This document shows, one piece after another, positions 5,125 through 22,528 of a stretch of 32,973 nucleotides of DNA. The notes beneath the pieces are model-generated. The model saw only the letters and a list, made by a program, of their open reading frames with translations, had not been told where the DNA came from and searched no databases. Each line of letters starts with the position of its first letter. Positions within the stretch are counted from its first letter, which is position 1. Source of the stretch: Thermodesulfovibrionales bacterium (lineage in GTDB: Bacteria > Nitrospirota > Thermodesulfovibrionia > Thermodesulfovibrionales > Dissulfurispiraceae); assembly GCA_020062545.1 (NCBI GenBank), contig JAGUWD010000040.1, forward strand, positions 1-32,973, given 5' to 3'. Both the position numbers and the translations under genes were made by a program.

Positions 5125-6357
5125 TTAATGTCTTGCAGACGCTTTTTCAGCCCTTAGTTTCGCAGCCTCGTCTTTGATCTTCTGCAATGTCTCTTTCATT
5201 GGCGCCCAGCCGTACCAGTGCATATAATCTGGGTTCATGTGGAATGCTCCCTGAAATGTTCTCATCCTGTATTCAAGGAACATGAGATAGAGGTCTTGCT
5301 CTATGGAACTCTTTGCCTCGTAGAACTGAAGCAGGTCAGGGGCAAATGTCCAGTCTGCAGGCTTCTGAAGCACACCGTCTTTGTAAAGACCCTGCACTAC
5401 CCTTATAGCGGTTGCAAATACCTTGTCCACATCTTTTATGACCATGTCTCCTGCCTCAAGCTGCTTTTTGGCATAGGAGGCTCCATGACACTTTGAGCAG
5501 ACATTAATCATCTTGTCCCTTTCCTTCTGGAAATCTTCTTTTGTGAGACGTGCAACCTTGCCGGCCTTTACAACATCCAGCCTTGCTGTAGGATTTCCTT
5601 TTTCGTCAAGAACTCCGAGCGCCTGAAGAATTGTAACCCTGTCATTCAACCAGTCCTTGTCATCTTCAGGAAGCCTCAATGCAAGGAAGCCCCATGCTGT
5701 CATAACTCCATGATTTCCTTCCTGCATATGGCATGTCTGGCATGTTGGTGCCCTTTTGCTTTTAGCGCCTTCTATCTGCCAGATAGTTCCGTGCTTTGAT
5801 GTTGACCACATCTCCCACTGGGGATGGTCAAATCCCATGTGGCATGTCTGGCAAGCCCTCGGGTCCTGTGCCTCTGACTTCTTAAATGAATGCCTTGTAT
5901 GGCATGAGTCGCACTGGGCATTTCCATAGCGGTACATGGCTTTCTCGGCATCTGATTTTACTCCTATCTTATGACAGCTTGAACATCCTTTGTATCCCTC
6001 ACCTACAACTGCCTTTGGTTGATGTGACCACATGGGCATTGCACTCGATGCAATCCAACCCAGGTGATGTTTCCCTGATTTAAACTGATCCACCTGTTTC
6101 TGGTGACATCCGGCACATGTCTCGGGGGTCGGCATTTTTGCCAGCTTTGCGTCATCCATCTTTTTATGGTCCGAGCCGTGACATGATGAGCAGTCAACGC
6201 CTTTCTTTGACATTTTCCCCTCGAGATGCTGCTTGACCACACCTGGGGTTACCTTCTTATGGCAATCGATGCACACACTTTTAGGGGCTGCCGCAAATGA
6301 CAGGCTGCTCATGGACAGAACAAATACAAATGCAAGCACTATTCTGAGATGCTTCAT
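5125..6357 (-). CDS. Octaheme c-type cytochrome, hydroxylamine oxidoreductase-like
   Basis: A periplasmic multiheme cytochrome. Residues 1-23 form a signal peptide. Eight CXXCH motifs start at residues 29, 56, 81, 125, 149, 169, 206 and 287; the last stands apart from the first seven, the spacing expected of the HAO family. Near the C-terminus lies YMHWYGW (378-384), the region where HAO carries its haem-crosslinking tyrosine. I cannot tell from sequence alone whether either Tyr does this. With the crosslink, family members oxidise hydroxylamine or hydrazine; without it they mostly reduce nitrite or hydroxylamine. No quinol-oxidising partner is adjacent. A strong AGGAGG precedes the ATG, and a TATGA-N6-TCATA box lies upstream. 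The fold family is fairly secure, the reaction open. Confidence 0.85.
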   Translation of the reverse strand: MKHLRIVLAFVFVLSMSSLSFAAAPKSVCIDCHKKVTPGVVKQHLEGKMSKKGVDCSSCHGSDHKKMDDAKLAKMPTPETCAGCHQKQVDQFKSGKHHLGWIASSAMPMWSHQPKAVVGEGYKGCSSCHKIGVKSDAEKAMYRYGNAQCDSCHTRHSFKKSEAQDPRACQTCHMGFDHPQWEMWSTSKHGTIWQIEGAKSKRAPTCQTCHMQEGNHGVMTAWGFLALRLPEDDKDWLNDRVTILQALGVLDEKGNPTARLDVVKAGKVARLTKEDFQKERDKMINVCSKCHGASYAKKQLEAGDMVIKDVDKVFATAIRVVQGLYKDGVLQKPADWTFAPDLLQFYEAKSSIEQDLYLMFLEYRMRTFQGAFHMNPDYMHWYGWAPMKETLQKIKDEAAKLRAEKASARH

Positions 6358-14272: not shown

Positions 14273-17260
14273 CTACTGTAATCTCCTGTCCTTCCAGTAT
14301 TTTATATTCCTCGTGTTTGAAAGTCCTTGTGGATTGATACCCGGTGGTTTAGTGGTCCTTGCATCCTGTCCAGCACCTCCGCTCACTGTAACATAAAGAT
14401 CCGGCGTCCCTGTATCAGGCCTCAATGAAATAATTGGAGCAGAAGGTATTCCTACCCCAGACAGTGTAGTGGTCCTTGCACCGCCGGTTAATACTCCTCC
14501 GCCGGTTGTGTAGCCTACTGCATAGAGTTTGGGGGTTCCAGCTTGCTCGCATGGATTTGATCCAGTAGCAGGGGTATATGTTGTGAAATAAACAACACCG
14601 CCAAAAACAGCGGGCTCTGCTAATATCTTTTCGCCGCTTCCCGAAAGATTTATATACCATCCTTGTTTAACACCGCTATATGTGCTGCCAGATGCAGTTA
14701 GATTTTCCATGTCATTAATTCCATAGCTTCCGCCGCCATCTTTTAATGCATAAAACTTTTCCTGTGCTGCGGACGATGTAGGGTCAGTTTTGTCGCCTGT
14801 TCCCCAGTAAACCCACATGTTGCCACTTGCATCTTTTGCCACAACAGCTTTTGTATAAATCGGTCTTATCACACCTGAAGATGCCTGAAACAAAAATCCT
14901 GCCCTTGTTGTCCATGTTGAAGTATTGCATGAGCTATCATCACTTGCCGTACATAGTTTAAATCTCCACATGCTTCCGCCTAAATCTCCAATATAAACTG
15001 TATCGACAAACCCATCATTGTCTGTATCTAATGCAGCAGGTGGGGCAGGGAAACTGTAATTCATGCTTGAATTATCAGCCCTTGTATAGCTCCATAAAAC
15101 ATTTCCATTGCTCATATCTACCACATAAAATCCTTTGCCCCTCGTATCGCAGCTTCCTCCACCGGAACAGTCTGAGGCATTATAACCTCCTCCTATAAAA
15201 CCAACCCATTTCTCATTACCGCCAATCTTTACCCTTCCTATAGACATTTTGCTCCACGGCTCGCCTAAATATGGAGCATTTGTTGAAGATGGAACAATGT
15301 TCCATTTGTATAATGGGCTCAATGTATTTGTAACATCCAGTGCATGATAGCCGCAATAATATCTGTATGTTGCTGAATATGTTGAGTTAAATCCAGAGTC
15401 GCACGAACTGGATGAACTCCATAAATATGCACCGGCACCCCTGCCTTCTCCAAATACAACAAGTGTCTTCCAGTCGTCAGCGCTTTTACTTGTTCCATCG
15501 CCTGTGCCGAGCCACACATCAGAGTGTGTTACAGGGCCATCAACAAAATATTGATGGGCAAGTCCTGTTGGATGAGTAGTGTGTGCGATAAGTTTCAGTT
15601 TTGGCAAGAGATTTGGAGGGATAAAACTCCATGCCTCCGAGCCGTCTGATGTCTTAAATGCATGGAACTGCCCGTCATTGGCGCCTGCAGCCACGATCAT
15701 CAGTCCATTGGCGGATGTCCTTTGATTATTTGTTCTGAATGTGGAAAAGGCATTATTTACATCTCTAAAATCATTGAAATATGTGAGCGGAGTTCCTACT
15801 AAAACAGGATTTGAACGAAATATATCGCCTAATTTCCAGTTGTCAGGATTATATGTGGCTTCTCCCCTGATGTATCCAACAACCGCATCCCTTTCTGCCG
15901 AAGTTGAAACCCCCAAATCTGCTGCTGTGATATTGGTTGTATTAAAAACAAGCGGGTTGGAACCTGATTTATATGTGTAGATATTTCTGTTTGCAGCGGA
16001 CTTTGCCTGCAATTGAGTTCCTGCATCCCATACCGCGCTGCCTACGCTGCCATCAGCATTTATAGTGTATTTTTTAAGATGTCCAAGCCAGAATGGGTCG
16101 TCATTTACAGGCTGAAACGATGCCTCATAAATATAATTTTCATCCTGTGTCCTTGTTGATGCAACAGCCGCTGCAGAGAATGCATAATTCGCCTCTCTGA
16201 TAATATTGATTGCCTGCCTTAAGGCTGCTGTCAGTTCATCGGCATTTGTTGCTAAAAATGCATACCCTGAAAGTGGAGCAGTGGCAGGGTCATTAGAGTT
16301 TGCAACTCTATCGCCAGTTCCTCCACCTTTACTGCATATGTCATTAATAACGCTCGTAGAAGTATCAGAACAGCTTGACACACCTGATGGATAAAAACTT
16401 CCAGCAGGTATGTTGTATCCGCTGGTATCTCCTGAATTTGCTTGAAGTGGATTGTCTGTTTGTCCATAATAAGCAGCCCAGTTAAGCGTCCTCTGAAGGC
16501 AGGTAGGCATACTTGCGCCAAATCCAATCACAAAAACTTTGTATCCTGCGTCTGCCAATGCCTTTGCCTTTGCAACTGTCTCCCTTCTTCTTTTGTACAT
16601 ATCGGATTGACTCTCCGTACCATCCCCGCTGCATGCATAGGTGTCAGCGCCGTCTGTGATGAGTATTGCAAATTTCTGGCGGCACCTCCCGGCAGTATCA
16701 CCTGCCTTATGGGCATCAAGATAGAGTTTTGCCTCATTCAATGCAGATGCAAGTGGTGTTCCTCCATTTGCCCTTTCACCGCTTATCCATGTAGCACTAC
16801 TGCTTTCACCTGCATTGGTTGTAATAGTGCAGCTTGTTGCATTATTGCAATATATACGGCTGTATCTTGAACCAATATCCCATATCAATTTAATATTGCC
16901 ACTTGTATAATTTCCGCTTGTATCATTTCCTTCCCGAAATCTCATGTATCCGATTCTTATATTAAGACTACTTTCATCGCTGCTATTTATTGTGTTGTCG
17001 TTGTTGTCATCAAGGATGTTAAAAATTGCTGTCTTTGCAATGGCAAGACGGCTACATGATGAAGTCGTGCATGGTAGGCTTGTAGATGTCGCAGTGTCTC
17101 CGGCAGGGTTCCAGTCCATGCTGCCGGATAAATCAAGGACTATCAGGGCATCAGGTGCAACAGTTGTAAAAAGTGCTGTTTCATCAGAATAAACATTCCC
17201 TGAAAAAACAAAACAGAGCATTATAAAGATTAAGAAAATTCTATTTATTATCTTAACCAT
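14273..17260 (-). CDS. pilY1: PilY1-like type IV pilus tip protein
   Basis: A large secreted protein (995 residues from the second ATG) that in other bacteria caps or primes type IV pili and mediates adhesion and surface sensing. A signal peptide (about 1-25) is followed by a von Willebrand A domain whose MIDAS begins DLSGSM (43-48) and includes ITDGADTY, then a C-terminal PilC/PilY1 beta-propeller with the calcium loop DTDNDGFVD followed by GDLGGSMWRF. The frame also allows an ATG six bases earlier at 17266, but the ATG at 17260 lies eight bases after AAGGAG. It follows four minor prepilin genes in the usual FimT-PilV-PilW-PilX-PilY1 order. Confidence 0.9.
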   Translation of the reverse strand: MVKIINRIFLIFIMLCFVFSGNVYSDETALFTTVAPDALIVLDLSGSMDWNPAGDTATSTSLPCTTSSCSRLAIAKTAIFNILDDNNDNTINSSDESSLNIRIGYMRFREGNDTSGNYTSGNIKLIWDIGSRYSRIYCNNATSCTITTNAGESSSATWISGERANGGTPLASALNEAKLYLDAHKAGDTAGRCRQKFAILITDGADTYACSGDGTESQSDMYKRRRETVAKAKALADAGYKVFVIGFGASMPTCLQRTLNWAAYYGQTDNPLQANSGDTSGYNIPAGSFYPSGVSSCSDTSTSVINDICSKGGGTGDRVANSNDPATAPLSGYAFLATNADELTAALRQAINIIREANYAFSAAAVASTRTQDENYIYEASFQPVNDDPFWLGHLKKYTINADGSVGSAVWDAGTQLQAKSAANRNIYTYKSGSNPLVFNTTNITAADLGVSTSAERDAVVGYIRGEATYNPDNWKLGDIFRSNPVLVGTPLTYFNDFRDVNNAFSTFRTNNQRTSANGLMIVAAGANDGQFHAFKTSDGSEAWSFIPPNLLPKLKLIAHTTHPTGLAHQYFVDGPVTHSDVWLGTGDGTSKSADDWKTLVVFGEGRGAGAYLWSSSSSCDSGFNSTYSATYRYYCGYHALDVTNTLSPLYKWNIVPSSTNAPYLGEPWSKMSIGRVKIGGNEKWVGFIGGGYNASDCSGGGSCDTRGKGFYVVDMSNGNVLWSYTRADNSSMNYSFPAPPAALDTDNDGFVDTVYIGDLGGSMWRFKLCTASDDSSCNTSTWTTRAGFLFQASSGVIRPIYTKAVVAKDASGNMWVYWGTGDKTDPTSSAAQEKFYALKDGGGSYGINDMENLTASGSTYSGVKQGWYINLSGSGEKILAEPAVFGGVVYFTTYTPATGSNPCEQAGTPKLYAVGYTTGGGVLTGGARTTTLSGVGIPSAPIISLRPDTGTPDLYVTVSGGAGQDARTTKPPGINPQGLSNTRNIKYWKDRRLQ

Positions 17261-17275
17261 AAACATTTCTCCTTT

Positions 17276-17722
17276 CTAATCAGTAGTTTTTGCGCATGTC
17301 CCGCTTTTAAAAAGACCTATCCCCACATCTACCTGAACTGTGCTTCCATATCGGGTATTAGTTCCTGTGACATTTGCCGCATACATATCTTCGCTCCATT
17401 TCTCAATATCAAACCCTGCCGGAGGAGGTGTGCAACCGCTTGAAGAAGCTCCGATAGTATATGAATATCTCGTATCAGGGTCCGTGGCAGGGTCAACCTG
17501 CACATTACTGGCAGTTCCTCCAACAGCAAAATTCTGTATTGCCTGATGCACACCTGTCTCGGCAGCAGAAAACGCCTTTTTCTCCCCTGCGATCCTCGCA
17601 CTTACCCTTATGTCCCTTGTTGTTACAGTAAAAACAAGGACGCCAACTGCAGTGAGTATCAAAATTGCAAGCAATGCAGCAATCATGGCAAAGCCCTTTT
17701 TATTTTTTATTTTCAACTTCAT
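17276..17722 (-). CDS. pilX: PilX-like minor pilin
   Basis: A 148-residue protein with the PilX N-terminal signature: short basic leader, Gly10 cleavage site (KKG followed by FAMIAALLAILILTAVG), long hydrophobic helix, then TTRDIRVSARIAGEKKAFSAAETG, the conserved amphipathic part. The mature position 5 is Ala rather than Glu, a feature seen in tip-positioned pilins such as GspK, consistent with capping the priming complex. GGGAG precedes the ATG; the gap to PilW is 14 nt. Confidence 0.85.
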   Translation of the reverse strand: MKLKIKNKKGFAMIAALLAILILTAVGVLVFTVTTRDIRVSARIAGEKKAFSAAETGVHQAIQNFAVGGTASNVQVDPATDPDTRYSYTIGASSSGCTPPPAGFDIEKWSEDMYAANVTGTNTRYGSTVQVDVGIGLFKSGTCAKTTD

Positions 17723-17736
17723 AAATTAACTCCCTG

Positions 17737-18399
17737 CTATGGATTGATTGCGTGGTTCCTCGGTATTACACTCGTTGAATAAATCATTCTTCTCCTCTGC
17801 CCTGTATTCGGGTCTATTGCATCTGTCTCAACTGCGAGGGTAATGTCTATCCTTCTTATATCCGGTATATTTGCTGTTTCTGCACCTGTACCATCAAAGT
17901 ATCTGAACACAGGAATCCCGATATCATTATTAATAACCCTGACAACCCTTGGACGTCTACTTGCAGGATCATCTCCCAAAAAGGGCTGTGCTACACCAGT
18001 GCCATTTCGTCTTGTTATACGCTGCTCAGCAATAACATATTCATACCTGATATCTTCATTACTGTCAGCAACATCGCCGTCATCGTTTATATCAGCCTGT
18101 ATCTGTATAATATTGTTTGCTGCGAGTATTATTCCTTTGTTTGCAGATGCACCCCATGGATTACTAATTCCGGTTCTGCGCCAGTACGATGCCATGCCTA
18201 TCTCCATTGCCATTAAATCAAGTGCAGCCCTTACATCCTGCTGAGCTGCAGTCTTTGCCTCAATAGCAACAGATGATCTCTGTCCTGACTGAACAGCAAC
18301 ATAAATGGCACTAAGCAAAAGCAAACCTATAGTAATCGCAAATAATACTTCGACAAGAGTAAAGCCCTTTTTATTAAGTAATGAGTTTTTTGAATTCAT
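17737..18399 (-). CDS. pilW: PilW-like minor pilin
   Basis: A type IV prepilin of 220 residues. Leader ends KKG, followed by FTLVEVLFAITIGLLLLS with Glu5, then a QQDVRAALDLMAMEIGMASYW block typical of PilW/GspJ-like proteins and a beta-rich globular part. The start overlaps the PilV stop by four bases (ATGA), so translation is coupled. Part of the predicted pilus-priming complex. Confidence 0.85.
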   Translation of the reverse strand: MNSKNSLLNKKGFTLVEVLFAITIGLLLLSAIYVAVQSGQRSSVAIEAKTAAQQDVRAALDLMAMEIGMASYWRRTGISNPWGASANKGIILAANNIIQIQADINDDGDVADSNEDIRYEYVIAEQRITRRNGTGVAQPFLGDDPASRRPRVVRVINNDIGIPVFRYFDGTGAETANIPDIRRIDITLAVETDAIDPNTGQRRRMIYSTSVIPRNHAINP

Positions 18400-18866
18400 A
18401 ATATACCCCAGTTCAGTGCTTGCGAATTATCAACACAGCCAACAGGAGACCTGAAATATTCCTGTCTTGTTACTACAACACTCTCTCTGACACCTACTAC
18501 ATTATTGCCAGGCCATGTAACTCTTATTGACAATCGCCAAGTATTAGTTCCTACCAATGCAATAGTTGTTTGAACTGTATATGGCGCATCCCCTGTGCCT
18601 GCTCCACCTGTGCCACTTGCAAAAATATTCTTATTAAATGTTCCCTCTGTAACTGTATTGCATGGATTCATTATTAATGCCTCTTTTGTTTCCAATTCCT
18701 TATGTAGCACCTCTGCTGCCCTGCCAAGATAATCAGACCTGCCTGATAATAACCATCCCTGAGGCTGCATGGAGATAAGCGCCATAACGCCAATCATTGT
18801 CAAAAAAAGTGCTATAAGCACCTCTACCATGCTCAGGCCCTTTTTATTGCAAATTAAATTGAACAC
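18396..18866 (-). CDS. pilV: PilV-like minor pilin
   Basis: A 156-residue prepilin with leader MFNLICNKKG and mature LSMVEVLIALFLTMIGVMAL (Glu5 present), then the MQPQGW and RAAEVLHKELETKEALI region seen in PilV/GspI-type pilins. The start is GTG, six bases after GGAG, and the gene overlaps the FimT-like gene by 23 nt. Confidence 0.85.
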   Translation of the reverse strand: MFNLICNKKGLSMVEVLIALFLTMIGVMALISMQPQGWLLSGRSDYLGRAAEVLHKELETKEALIMNPCNTVTEGTFNKNIFASGTGGAGTGDAPYTVQTTIALVGTNTWRLSIRVTWPGNNVVGVRESVVVTRQEYFRSPVGCVDNSQALNWGIL

Positions 18867-19299
18867 TTGTTCTCCCTGTAATGTTTGTTGTTATAGTTGC
18901 TGTAGAGCCCCTATCGTTAATTAAAACAACCGTTCCCGCGTTGACGGTGCCTCTCGTCTGAAAGGTATAAACGGTTTCTGTAGTTCCCACATTGGAAATC
19001 CTTATATCGTTTCCAAATGTTGTGGGTGTCTTAGTTTGAATAATGGTACCTGGAGGCTGTTCAATAGTATAGGTGTTCCCCCCTATATTAAATGTAATTC
19101 TGTATTGTCTATTCTCAGCTATAGCTCTTTCTTTATAAAGAAAAATATCGCCCATGACATCCCTCGCTGCACTTTTCAGCCTTGAGTTGGTAGCATAGCT
19201 CTGTAGTTGCGGTATGGCAATTGCTGCCACAACAGCAATTATTCCAATTGTTACCAAAAGCTCAACAAGTGAAAAACCTTCTTGTCCTCTGTATTTCAT
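18844..19299 (-). CDS. fimT: FimT/GspH-like minor pilin
   Basis: A 151-residue prepilin: leader MKYRGQEG, mature FSLVELLVTIGIIAVVAAIAIPQL (Glu5), then SRLKSAARDVMGDIFLYKERAIAENR, the FimT/GspH hallmark, and a small beta domain. First gene of the pilin operon. There is no Shine-Dalgarno: a sigma-54 -12 element lies 12 nt before the ATG, so the transcript is predicted to be leaderless or nearly so. Confidence 0.88.
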   Translation of the reverse strand: MKYRGQEGFSLVELLVTIGIIAVVAAIAIPQLQSYATNSRLKSAARDVMGDIFLYKERAIAENRQYRITFNIGGNTYTIEQPPGTIIQTKTPTTFGNDIRISNVGTTETVYTFQTRGTVNAGTVVLINDRGSTATITTNITGRTSVQFNLQ

Positions 19300-20792: not shown

Positions 20793-21668
20793 TCAATCCT
20801 TTGGTAAAAACACCCTGAAAGTGCTGCCTTCTCCTTCTTTGCTTTCTACAGTAATGTTTCCGCCGTGCCCCATGACTATCTTCTGCACAAGAGCCAAGCC
20901 TATTCCCGAACCCTTCTCCTTTGTGGTATAAAACGGCATGAATATTCTGTCCACATCTCTGTCAGCTATTCCTTTGCCGTTGTCTCTGATGGTGATATAA
21001 ACACCATCCTTTTGACTTTCCGTGCCCAGCGATTGACGCTCCGCCCACGCTCCGCGCTTTACATCTATCCATACCCTCTCTCCTGCATCGATGGCATTAT
21101 GGACAAGATTTTTTATTGCCTGCTTTAGCAGGGTTTCATCGCCCTTTATTGAAACATCATCCAATAAACTAAAATCTATTTTATCAGCAGAATCACCCAT
21201 ACTTTGAATAACATCCTTTATGGATGTTGTGAGGTTTATATCGATTTTTTTAATCGGCTCTGACCTCGAAAATTTAAGCAACTCTTCCATAACACAATTC
21301 ATATCCTCAATTTCGTTAAGAATGCCTTGAACTATTTCTCTTCTGTTGTCGTTTTCATCAAGGCTCTTTAAAAGGAGTTTTGCATAGCCTGCTATTACAC
21401 CCATGGGGTTTCTGAATTCGTGTGCTATCCCGGCGGACACCTCTCCGAGCGCAGCAAGCCTCTCCTTTATGACAAGCTGTTCTTTAAGGGACTTTATTTC
21501 GTCTCCGAGTGCCCGGAATGCATTTACAACTGTATTTATCTCAGCACTTTCTTTTTTTGCTTCTTCTTTCTTTAAAAGGCGGGGCAGGAATATTGCAACA
21601 ATAAAGAGTAATATCAGAAAAATCGAGGCTGCCAGGAAAACAATGAGACTATCAGGACCGGCTTTCAT
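20793..21668 (-). CDS. Sensor histidine kinase, single membrane helix
   Basis: Partner kinase of the adjacent regulator, 291 residues. One N-terminal transmembrane helix (about 7-28), a short coiled linker, HisKA with phospho-acceptor H83 in AGIAHEFRNPMG, and HATPase_c with NLVHNAIDA, DNGKGI and GSGIGLALV. There is no extracellular sensor and not the six-helix domain of classical PilS, so the signal probably comes from the cytoplasm or a partner. Residues about 205-220, between two ATPase strands, are an odd GC-rich insertion (21009-21056). The start overlaps the DsbC-like stop (ATGA). Confidence 0.9.
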   Translation of the reverse strand: MKAGPDSLIVFLAASIFLILLFIVAIFLPRLLKKEEAKKESAEINTVVNAFRALGDEIKSLKEQLVIKERLAALGEVSAGIAHEFRNPMGVIAGYAKLLLKSLDENDNRREIVQGILNEIEDMNCVMEELLKFSRSEPIKKIDINLTTSIKDVIQSMGDSADKIDFSLLDDVSIKGDETLLKQAIKNLVHNAIDAGERVWIDVKRGAWAERQSLGTESQKDGVYITIRDNGKGIADRDVDRIFMPFYTTKEKGSGIGLALVQKIVMGHGGNITVESKEGEGSTFRVFLPKD

Positions 21669-22459
21669 TGCCTCCCGTTAATGAGTTCTATGAGTTTATC
21701 CGCAGGCATTGCTCCTGAATAGATCTTGCCATCGGGCATTATCATTGCAGGGGTGCCTGTAATACCAAGTGATTCTGCCAGTTTTATATTATTATCCACT
21801 TCCTTTGTGTCACAATCAGTTTTAGGAATGGGTTTATTCTCGAAATTGTCCTCGAGCATATTCAAAGATTTATTGCATACGATACTCCTGGATTTCCAGT
21901 ATGCATCCTTATGCATCTTTAATGGAAACAGTTTCAAATAAAACACGATATCCTTTCTCTTTTCTAAAACCTTCTTCATCTCCTGATGAAGTTTCCCGCA
22001 GTACGGTCAATCGGGGTCTGTAAATACAATCACCCTTTTTGGTGCATGGACGTTGCCCATGACTAATGCATTATTCACCGGTATCTTTGAAACATCCGCC
22101 TTTCCTATAGGAATCCTCTGGGCGCTTTCCGCAGTTTTATTTGAGCCGGTATTTACTTCGATAATTTGACCTGAAAGGAGATACTTTTTCGAGAAATCCA
22201 CATAAAAAATGCCCTTTTTGCCATTATCCTCTATTTGTATTTCCCATAGGCTCTTTACAGGGCTCAACTGTATATTCAGAACCTTTGCACGGGATAGCTT
22301 CATCTTCTTCAGGATGCCGTTAACTTCATGTGTGCTTAAAGAATGGCACTTCTTGCAATCCCCCTCGCAACCACCATTACTAAAAGAATAGGCTAAGGTT
22401 GAGGTTAAGGTTAAGAATGAAAAAACAATCAAAAGCATTATAAATTTAAATTTATACAT
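21665..22459 (-). CDS. DsbC-like thiol:disulfide protein with predicted selenocysteine (UPYC) and a CXXCH motif
   Basis: Read through one TGA (22009-22007), the frame gives a 264-residue periplasmic protein: signal peptide (about 1-25), CEGDCKKCH (31-39, a possible c-heme site), a DsbC-type dimerisation-like domain (about 45-110), and a thioredoxin fold where VFTDPD is followed by Sec151-Pro-Tyr-Cys154, a normal downstream sequence, and the cis-Pro loop GTPAM. TGA falls exactly on the first Cys of the CPYC motif. A 7-bp hairpin with loop AGGA begins 15 nt after it (21974-21991), as expected of a bacterial SECIS. Alternatives are a nonsense mutation or sequence error. AAGGAA precedes the ATG; the stop overlaps the kinase start. 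selA, selB, selC and selD are not in the window. Confidence 0.8.
21974..21991 (-). promoter_or_regulatory. Predicted bacterial SECIS element
   Basis: On the minus strand CTTCATC pairs perfectly with GATGAAG around the loop AGGA. The first loop G is the 24th base after the TGA, inside the 16-37-base range described for bacterial SECIS elements, and lies in the first two loop positions as the consensus asks. Confidence 0.6.
22384..22415 (-). repeat. Hexad-periodic tract encoding a signal-peptide core
   Basis: Repeats near cttaac/cctcaa/ccttag on the minus strand encode the LTLTSTLA core of the DsbC-like signal peptide. A similar tract (22497-22517, cccttaaccttagccttaa) lies in the same gene's upstream spacer. 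Confidence 0.45.
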
Positions 22460-22528
22460 AGTTCCTTTCCTTTTGACAAATTAATTAAATCGTTTCCCTT
22501 AACCTTAGCCTTAACATTGACTGTTTTT

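Follow-up and report, generated by a model that had tools for sequence, protein, structure and literature searches.

A predicted DsbC-type selenoprotein with a U-P-Y-C active site and a conserved SECIS hairpin in the phylum Nitrospirota

A predicted selenoprotein family named 'Thiol:disulfide interchange protein' has been listed with the domain PF13098, a UxxC motif and the representative WP_011366075.1 (PMC13188914 Table 1; PMC9312934), and a DsbG-like selenoprotein of COG1651, also with a UxxC motif, has been reported (PMC1088965, PMC2398784, PMC13188914). A small apical loop containing a guanosine is a named feature of the bacterial SECIS (bSECIS) element (PMC1088965), and selenoproteins of the SelD type carry their selenocysteine (Sec) near the N-terminus (PMC13188914). 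The DsbC proteins of E. coli and its relatives (PDB 1EEJ, 4NPB, 4I5Q) have a DsbC_N domain, a thioredoxin domain, a KLH(x)EM helix past the active site, a cis-Pro loop and a second cysteine pair in common with the protein considered here.

The window (the whole stretch of 32,973 nucleotides analysed, from a Thermodesulfovibrionales bacterium) contains a minus-strand frame, 22459-21665, that terminates in its own TGA and has a sole internal TGA at 22009-22007. A preliminary description made from the letters alone had proposed that this single TGA splits an otherwise continuous DsbC-like frame at the first cysteine of a CxxC motif, and its placement is exact to the base, as are all the other coordinates it gave. 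Under the standard code the frame falls apart into ORFs of 150 and 104 amino acids, the two broken genes that had been expected from automatic annotation. Read through, it gives 264 residues, with the active-site context FTDPD-U-PYCGKLHQEM in which U replaces the first Cys. The gene is read as encoding a DsbC-type selenoprotein in which UGA151 is decoded as Sec in place of the nucleophilic first Cys of the CxxC site, a reading to which a probability of roughly 96% is assigned. The features concerned are as follows.

21665-22459, minus strand: full gene of the predicted DsbC-type selenoprotein, 264 residues (from frame, translation, domain matches and model)
22343-22357, minus strand: CxxCH motif, Cys35-Lys-Lys-Cys38-His39, a possible c-type heme attachment site
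22007-22009, minus strand: in-frame TGA, codon 151, predicted Sec at the first position of the U-P-Y-C active site
21998-22000, minus strand: TGC encoding Cys154, which partners the predicted Sec in the UxxC motif
21974-21991, minus strand: bacterial SECIS hairpin with a 7-bp stem and the loop AGGA (from the fold and from conservation in 50 TGA homologues)
21749-21754, minus strand: Thr236-Pro237, the cis-Pro loop position of the thioredoxin fold (from alignment numbering and sequence)
20793-21668, minus strand: sensor histidine kinase gene lying downstream (identified by its translated sequence)

The protein consists of an N-terminal hydrophobic, signal-like segment, a DsbC_N domain (residues 54-109; 35.7 bits against a Pfam cut-off of 25) and a thioredoxin domain (residues 143-259; Thioredoxin_2, 69.4 bits against a cut-off of 27), and both PF10411 and PF13098 were matched by all 40 of the family members scanned. 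DsbC structures rank first when the PDB is searched with the family profile. Prediction of the structure from the single sequence was poor (pLDDT 46) and was superseded by an AlphaFold model built on a 40-sequence alignment, which has a mean pLDDT of 92. In a Foldseek search with this model the top matches are DsbC chains (E about 1e-13), with TM-scores near 0.5 and a large rmsd that are taken to mean a different angle between the two domains. Judged from the Pfam matches, the profile search and the confident model, the protein is of the DsbC type; since it scores 76 bits against the cut-off of 215 for the NCBIfam DsbC equivalog NF008129, it is termed DsbC-type and not a certified equivalog. 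None of the NCBIfam selenoprotein models reaches its cut-off for this protein.

The gene immediately downstream bears on how the internal UGA is to be understood. The selenoprotein gene's stop codon and the start codon of the histidine kinase overlap within an ATGA (21665-21668), and because this overlap is kept in most close relatives, translational coupling of the two genes is likely. Most close relatives also retain, within the 3' end of the gene, a GGGAGG resembling a ribosome-binding site, and close relatives share the gene order ScpB, DsbC, histidine kinase, NtrC-type regulator, the Cys forms L133 and L138 included. These arrangements would suit an explanation in which the UGA is mainly a selenium-dependent regulatory stop: at low selenium, termination at codon 151 would leave less of the kinase to be translated, making the two-component system a selenium sensor. 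Scarce selenium could depress kinase synthesis through termination at the UGA, but Cys relatives (L027, L029, L030) have the overlap just as often, so it is not Sec-specific, and many TGA copies of other lineages do not adjoin the kinase. Regulation of this kind would add to the selenoprotein reading without replacing it, and as the main function of the codon it is improbable. Elsewhere in this neighborhood, a type IV pilin-like cluster with a PilY1-like protein was read from translations at 14273-19299 (minus strand), downstream of the NtrC-type regulator, and in the nearest relatives pilin-like genes also lie beyond that regulator. An inverted repeat around the start codon, at about 22390-22515 (minus strand; GGCTAAGGTTAAGG / CCTTAACCTCAACCTTAGCC; fold z-score -2.4), was considered as a regulatory element and rejected, as it is not conserved in relatives.

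Homologues of the gene are widespread among related genomes. A match was found in 29 of 31 genomes of the same family, many with exactly one TGA, and a phylum-wide sample gave a strong match in 103 of 296 genomes, with many of those matches containing TGA. A separate collection supplied 49 loci, most of them carrying the label Nitrospirae/Nitrospirota, Thermodesulfovibrionales or Nitrospiraceae. Overall, removal of duplicates left 84 distinct homologues. The codon aligned to position 151 is TGA in 50 of these and TGC or TGT in the other 34, with no other codon in any of the 84, so that the comparison proposed in the preliminary description returned only the Sec and Cys codons expected of the first active-site position. 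The alignment of 40 members is invariant at columns 151 and 154 and, downstream, at Cys195, Cys216 and Pro237. In same-genus pairs, dN/dS past the hairpin is 0.07-0.09, no weaker a constraint than before the UGA, and in a second genus it is 0.12-0.19; protein-level selection persists beyond the UGA. The frame had been described as intact through the cis-Pro loop to a normal stop, and the 264-residue reading, the invariant Pro237 and the gene's own stop codon bear this out.

The evidence specific to Sec insertion lies just downstream of the UGA, in a hairpin (CTTCATC-AGGA-GATGAAG, 21991-21974) whose first loop G, at 21983, is the 24th base past the TGA. The stem, the GG-containing loop and the spacing are all as first described: it folds as a perfect 7-bp stem (-12.1 kcal/mol and z -2.0 for a 56-nt segment). 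A search of the 2.6-Mb genome with the hairpin pattern gave a single site (reversed-pattern control, 0), and in a scan of the window allowing up to three mismatches, for which 0.09 matches were expected by chance, the two matches found are a single palindromic site seen on both strands. All seven stem pairs are formed in each of the 50 TGA genes, versus 2-6 of 7 in the 34 Cys genes, and the identical 18-mer is present in 46/50 TGA genes versus 0/34 Cys genes. The remaining four TGA genes deviate from the 18-mer in the loop only; in one of them, L044, the loop AGTC lacks the GG, a point against the Sec reading. Among TGA genes the first base of the loop is variable (A, T, C or G) and the stem is constant, as expected of a hairpin read by SelB.

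The same constraint is visible in codon choice, each of six residues being written with one codon in the TGA genes (Lys+5 AAA, Leu+6 CTT, His+7 CAT, Gln+8 CAG, Glu+9 GAG and Lys+11 AAG). Synonymous entropy at +5 to +9 and +11 is 0.00 in TGA genes versus 0.92-1.87 bits at the same codons in Cys genes, with a mean of 1.37 bits outside these positions; related sequences such as these are not independent, but a fair control is provided by the Cys homologues, which are interspersed among them in the tree. KLHQEMKK was one of the peptide patterns used to assemble the 49-locus collection. Since these patterns are degenerate, they bias amino acids and leave synonymous codons unbiased; the same-family genome search and the phylum-wide sample were not seeded with these patterns. 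The hairpin downstream of UGA151 is under RNA-level selection, and its frozen synonymous sites are the strongest single line of evidence for reading the codon as Sec.

These comparisons also dispose of the explanation that a former Cys gene has acquired the TGA by nonsense mutation or through a base-call error. One base separates TGA from TGC or TGT, and the two short ORFs under the standard code are what such a lesion would produce, but the 50 TGA homologues come from independent assemblies and nearly all lack any other internal stop, same-genus dN/dS past the TGA is about 0.08, and only in TGA genes are the synonymous positions of the hairpin invariant. A TGC concealed by read error and additional inactivating changes in homologues had both been named at the outset as observations that could overturn the selenoprotein proposal; the same TGA recurs in dozens of independent genomes, which argues against read error, and beyond it the homologues are nearly free of extra stops and strongly constrained. 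A pseudogene or sequencing error is rejected on this comparative evidence and has a negligible probability.

The genome itself (2.6 Mb, completeness rating 100%) encodes the complete Sec system, all four of the genes selA, selB, selC and selD that had been recommended for a search being present; a lack of selB or selC had been the third observation named as able to overturn the proposal. The tRNA-Sec was detected both by Infernal (71 bits) and by ARAGORN (tRNA-SeC, anticodon tca), and SelA, SelB and SelD matches score 627, 396 and 320 bits, respectively. The selD gene (L018; G000:C19:20916-21830) carries its own in-frame TGA near the N-terminus, in the N-terminal loop, at what we take to be the known Sec position of SelD selenoproteins, and so its product is itself a predicted selenoprotein. 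Two draft assemblies run counter to the Sec reading. In G163, an order-level genome with a completeness rating of 99%, there are two TGA copies (L119, L120), each with a perfect hairpin, and a tRNA-Sec, with no SelA or SelB found above cut-off in this draft, and a second draft (G232) has a TGA copy, a tRNA-Sec and a partial SelB match only, with no SelA found; the genes may simply be missing from these assemblies. Co-occurrence with SelA across the phylum was dropped as a test, since genomes that have the Cys form alone commonly encode SelA too, which makes it a weak discriminator. That TGA is reassigned to Trp, or generically read through without Sec, would account for a frame that is open once the codon is read as a residue, but TGA terminates 11 of the 32 window genes taken as real (the DsbC-type gene included), the aligned alternatives at codon 151 are always Cys and never Trp, and a complete Sec system is present, so that a reassigned code is rejected on comparative evidence and read-through is likewise exceedingly improbable. 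The selenoprotein (UPYC) reading put forward in the preliminary description is thus supported from several directions, namely the Sec machinery, the homologue codons, the conservation of the hairpin and the constraint downstream.

In a tree computed with the active-site residue masked, the distribution of Sec and Cys states requires about 10 changes, at least 5 of which are forced by well-supported branches; on this phylogeny the predicted Sec forms and the Cys forms have switched repeatedly. Some genomes carry both Sec and Cys paralogues, which are adjacent in L121 and L124; the several paralogues, like the CxxCH motif and the translational overlap, go beyond the preliminary description. One Cys gene (L080), a tree neighbor of a Sec gene, has kept the hairpin sequence largely intact, suggesting that its change from Sec to Cys was recent. 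The partner cysteine has been lost in the Sec paralogues L126 (G171, UPFS) and L123 (G017, UGVS), both of which keep the SECIS hairpin.

The protein probably acts as a periplasmic isomerase or reductase. SelB carrying Sec-tRNA-Sec would bind the hairpin and decode UGA151, the signal-like N-terminus would direct export, and the DsbC_N domain would form the dimer. The selenol would then attack wrong disulfides and Cys154 would resolve the intermediate, with electrons presumably supplied by a DsbD/CcdA-like reductase. Secreted Cys-rich proteins and apocytochromes c are among the possible substrates. A further element is the CxxCH motif, located in an N-terminal extension just ahead of DsbC_N in 77 of the 84 homologues (Sec 43/50, Cys 34/34) and absent from seven, all of them Sec members. 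Another gene in the window (5125-6357) has eight CxxCH motifs, making heme attachment plausible in this organism, and the motif of the DsbC-type protein could bind heme c. That the enzyme joins a covalent heme c to a Sec active site is nevertheless doubtful; if it did, a cytochrome could exchange electrons with the selenenyl-sulfide centre, and disulfide repair would be coupled to the periplasmic cytochrome network.

Widespread periplasmic disulfide enzymes of the Nitrospirota are thus predicted to use active-site selenium, in Sec and Cys forms that interchange and sometimes coexist, and they form a natural series on which to ask how an exported redox enzyme benefits from Sec. The comparison also flags genes that automatic annotation would split, in a TGA form common to many relatives in the phylum. 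No DsbC_N-containing Sec form was found among 119 tabulated selenoprotein families and subfamilies, and searches of the open-access literature for DsbC selenoproteins and for DsbC with CxxCH, mostly of titles and abstracts, turned up no account of the family. UxxC thiol:disulfide selenoproteins are already known, and a new family is not claimed. The listed 'Thiol:disulfide interchange protein' family shares Thioredoxin_2 and a UxxC motif with Sec first; its listing names PF13098 only, and the DsbC-type protein may belong to that family or form a separate subfamily. In the DsbG-like selenoproteins, Sec likewise stands first in the active site of a thiol oxidoreductase of the DsbG/DsbC superfamily; these proteins are listed under NF041057 or PF13462, and the DsbC-type protein, to which NF041057 has no match at E 0.1 or better, is far closer to DsbC than to DsbG. 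Compared with DsbC itself, the first active-site Cys is here predicted to be Sec and most family members have an extra N-terminal CxxCH segment. With this family, DsbC_N-type proteins join the selenoprotein candidates.
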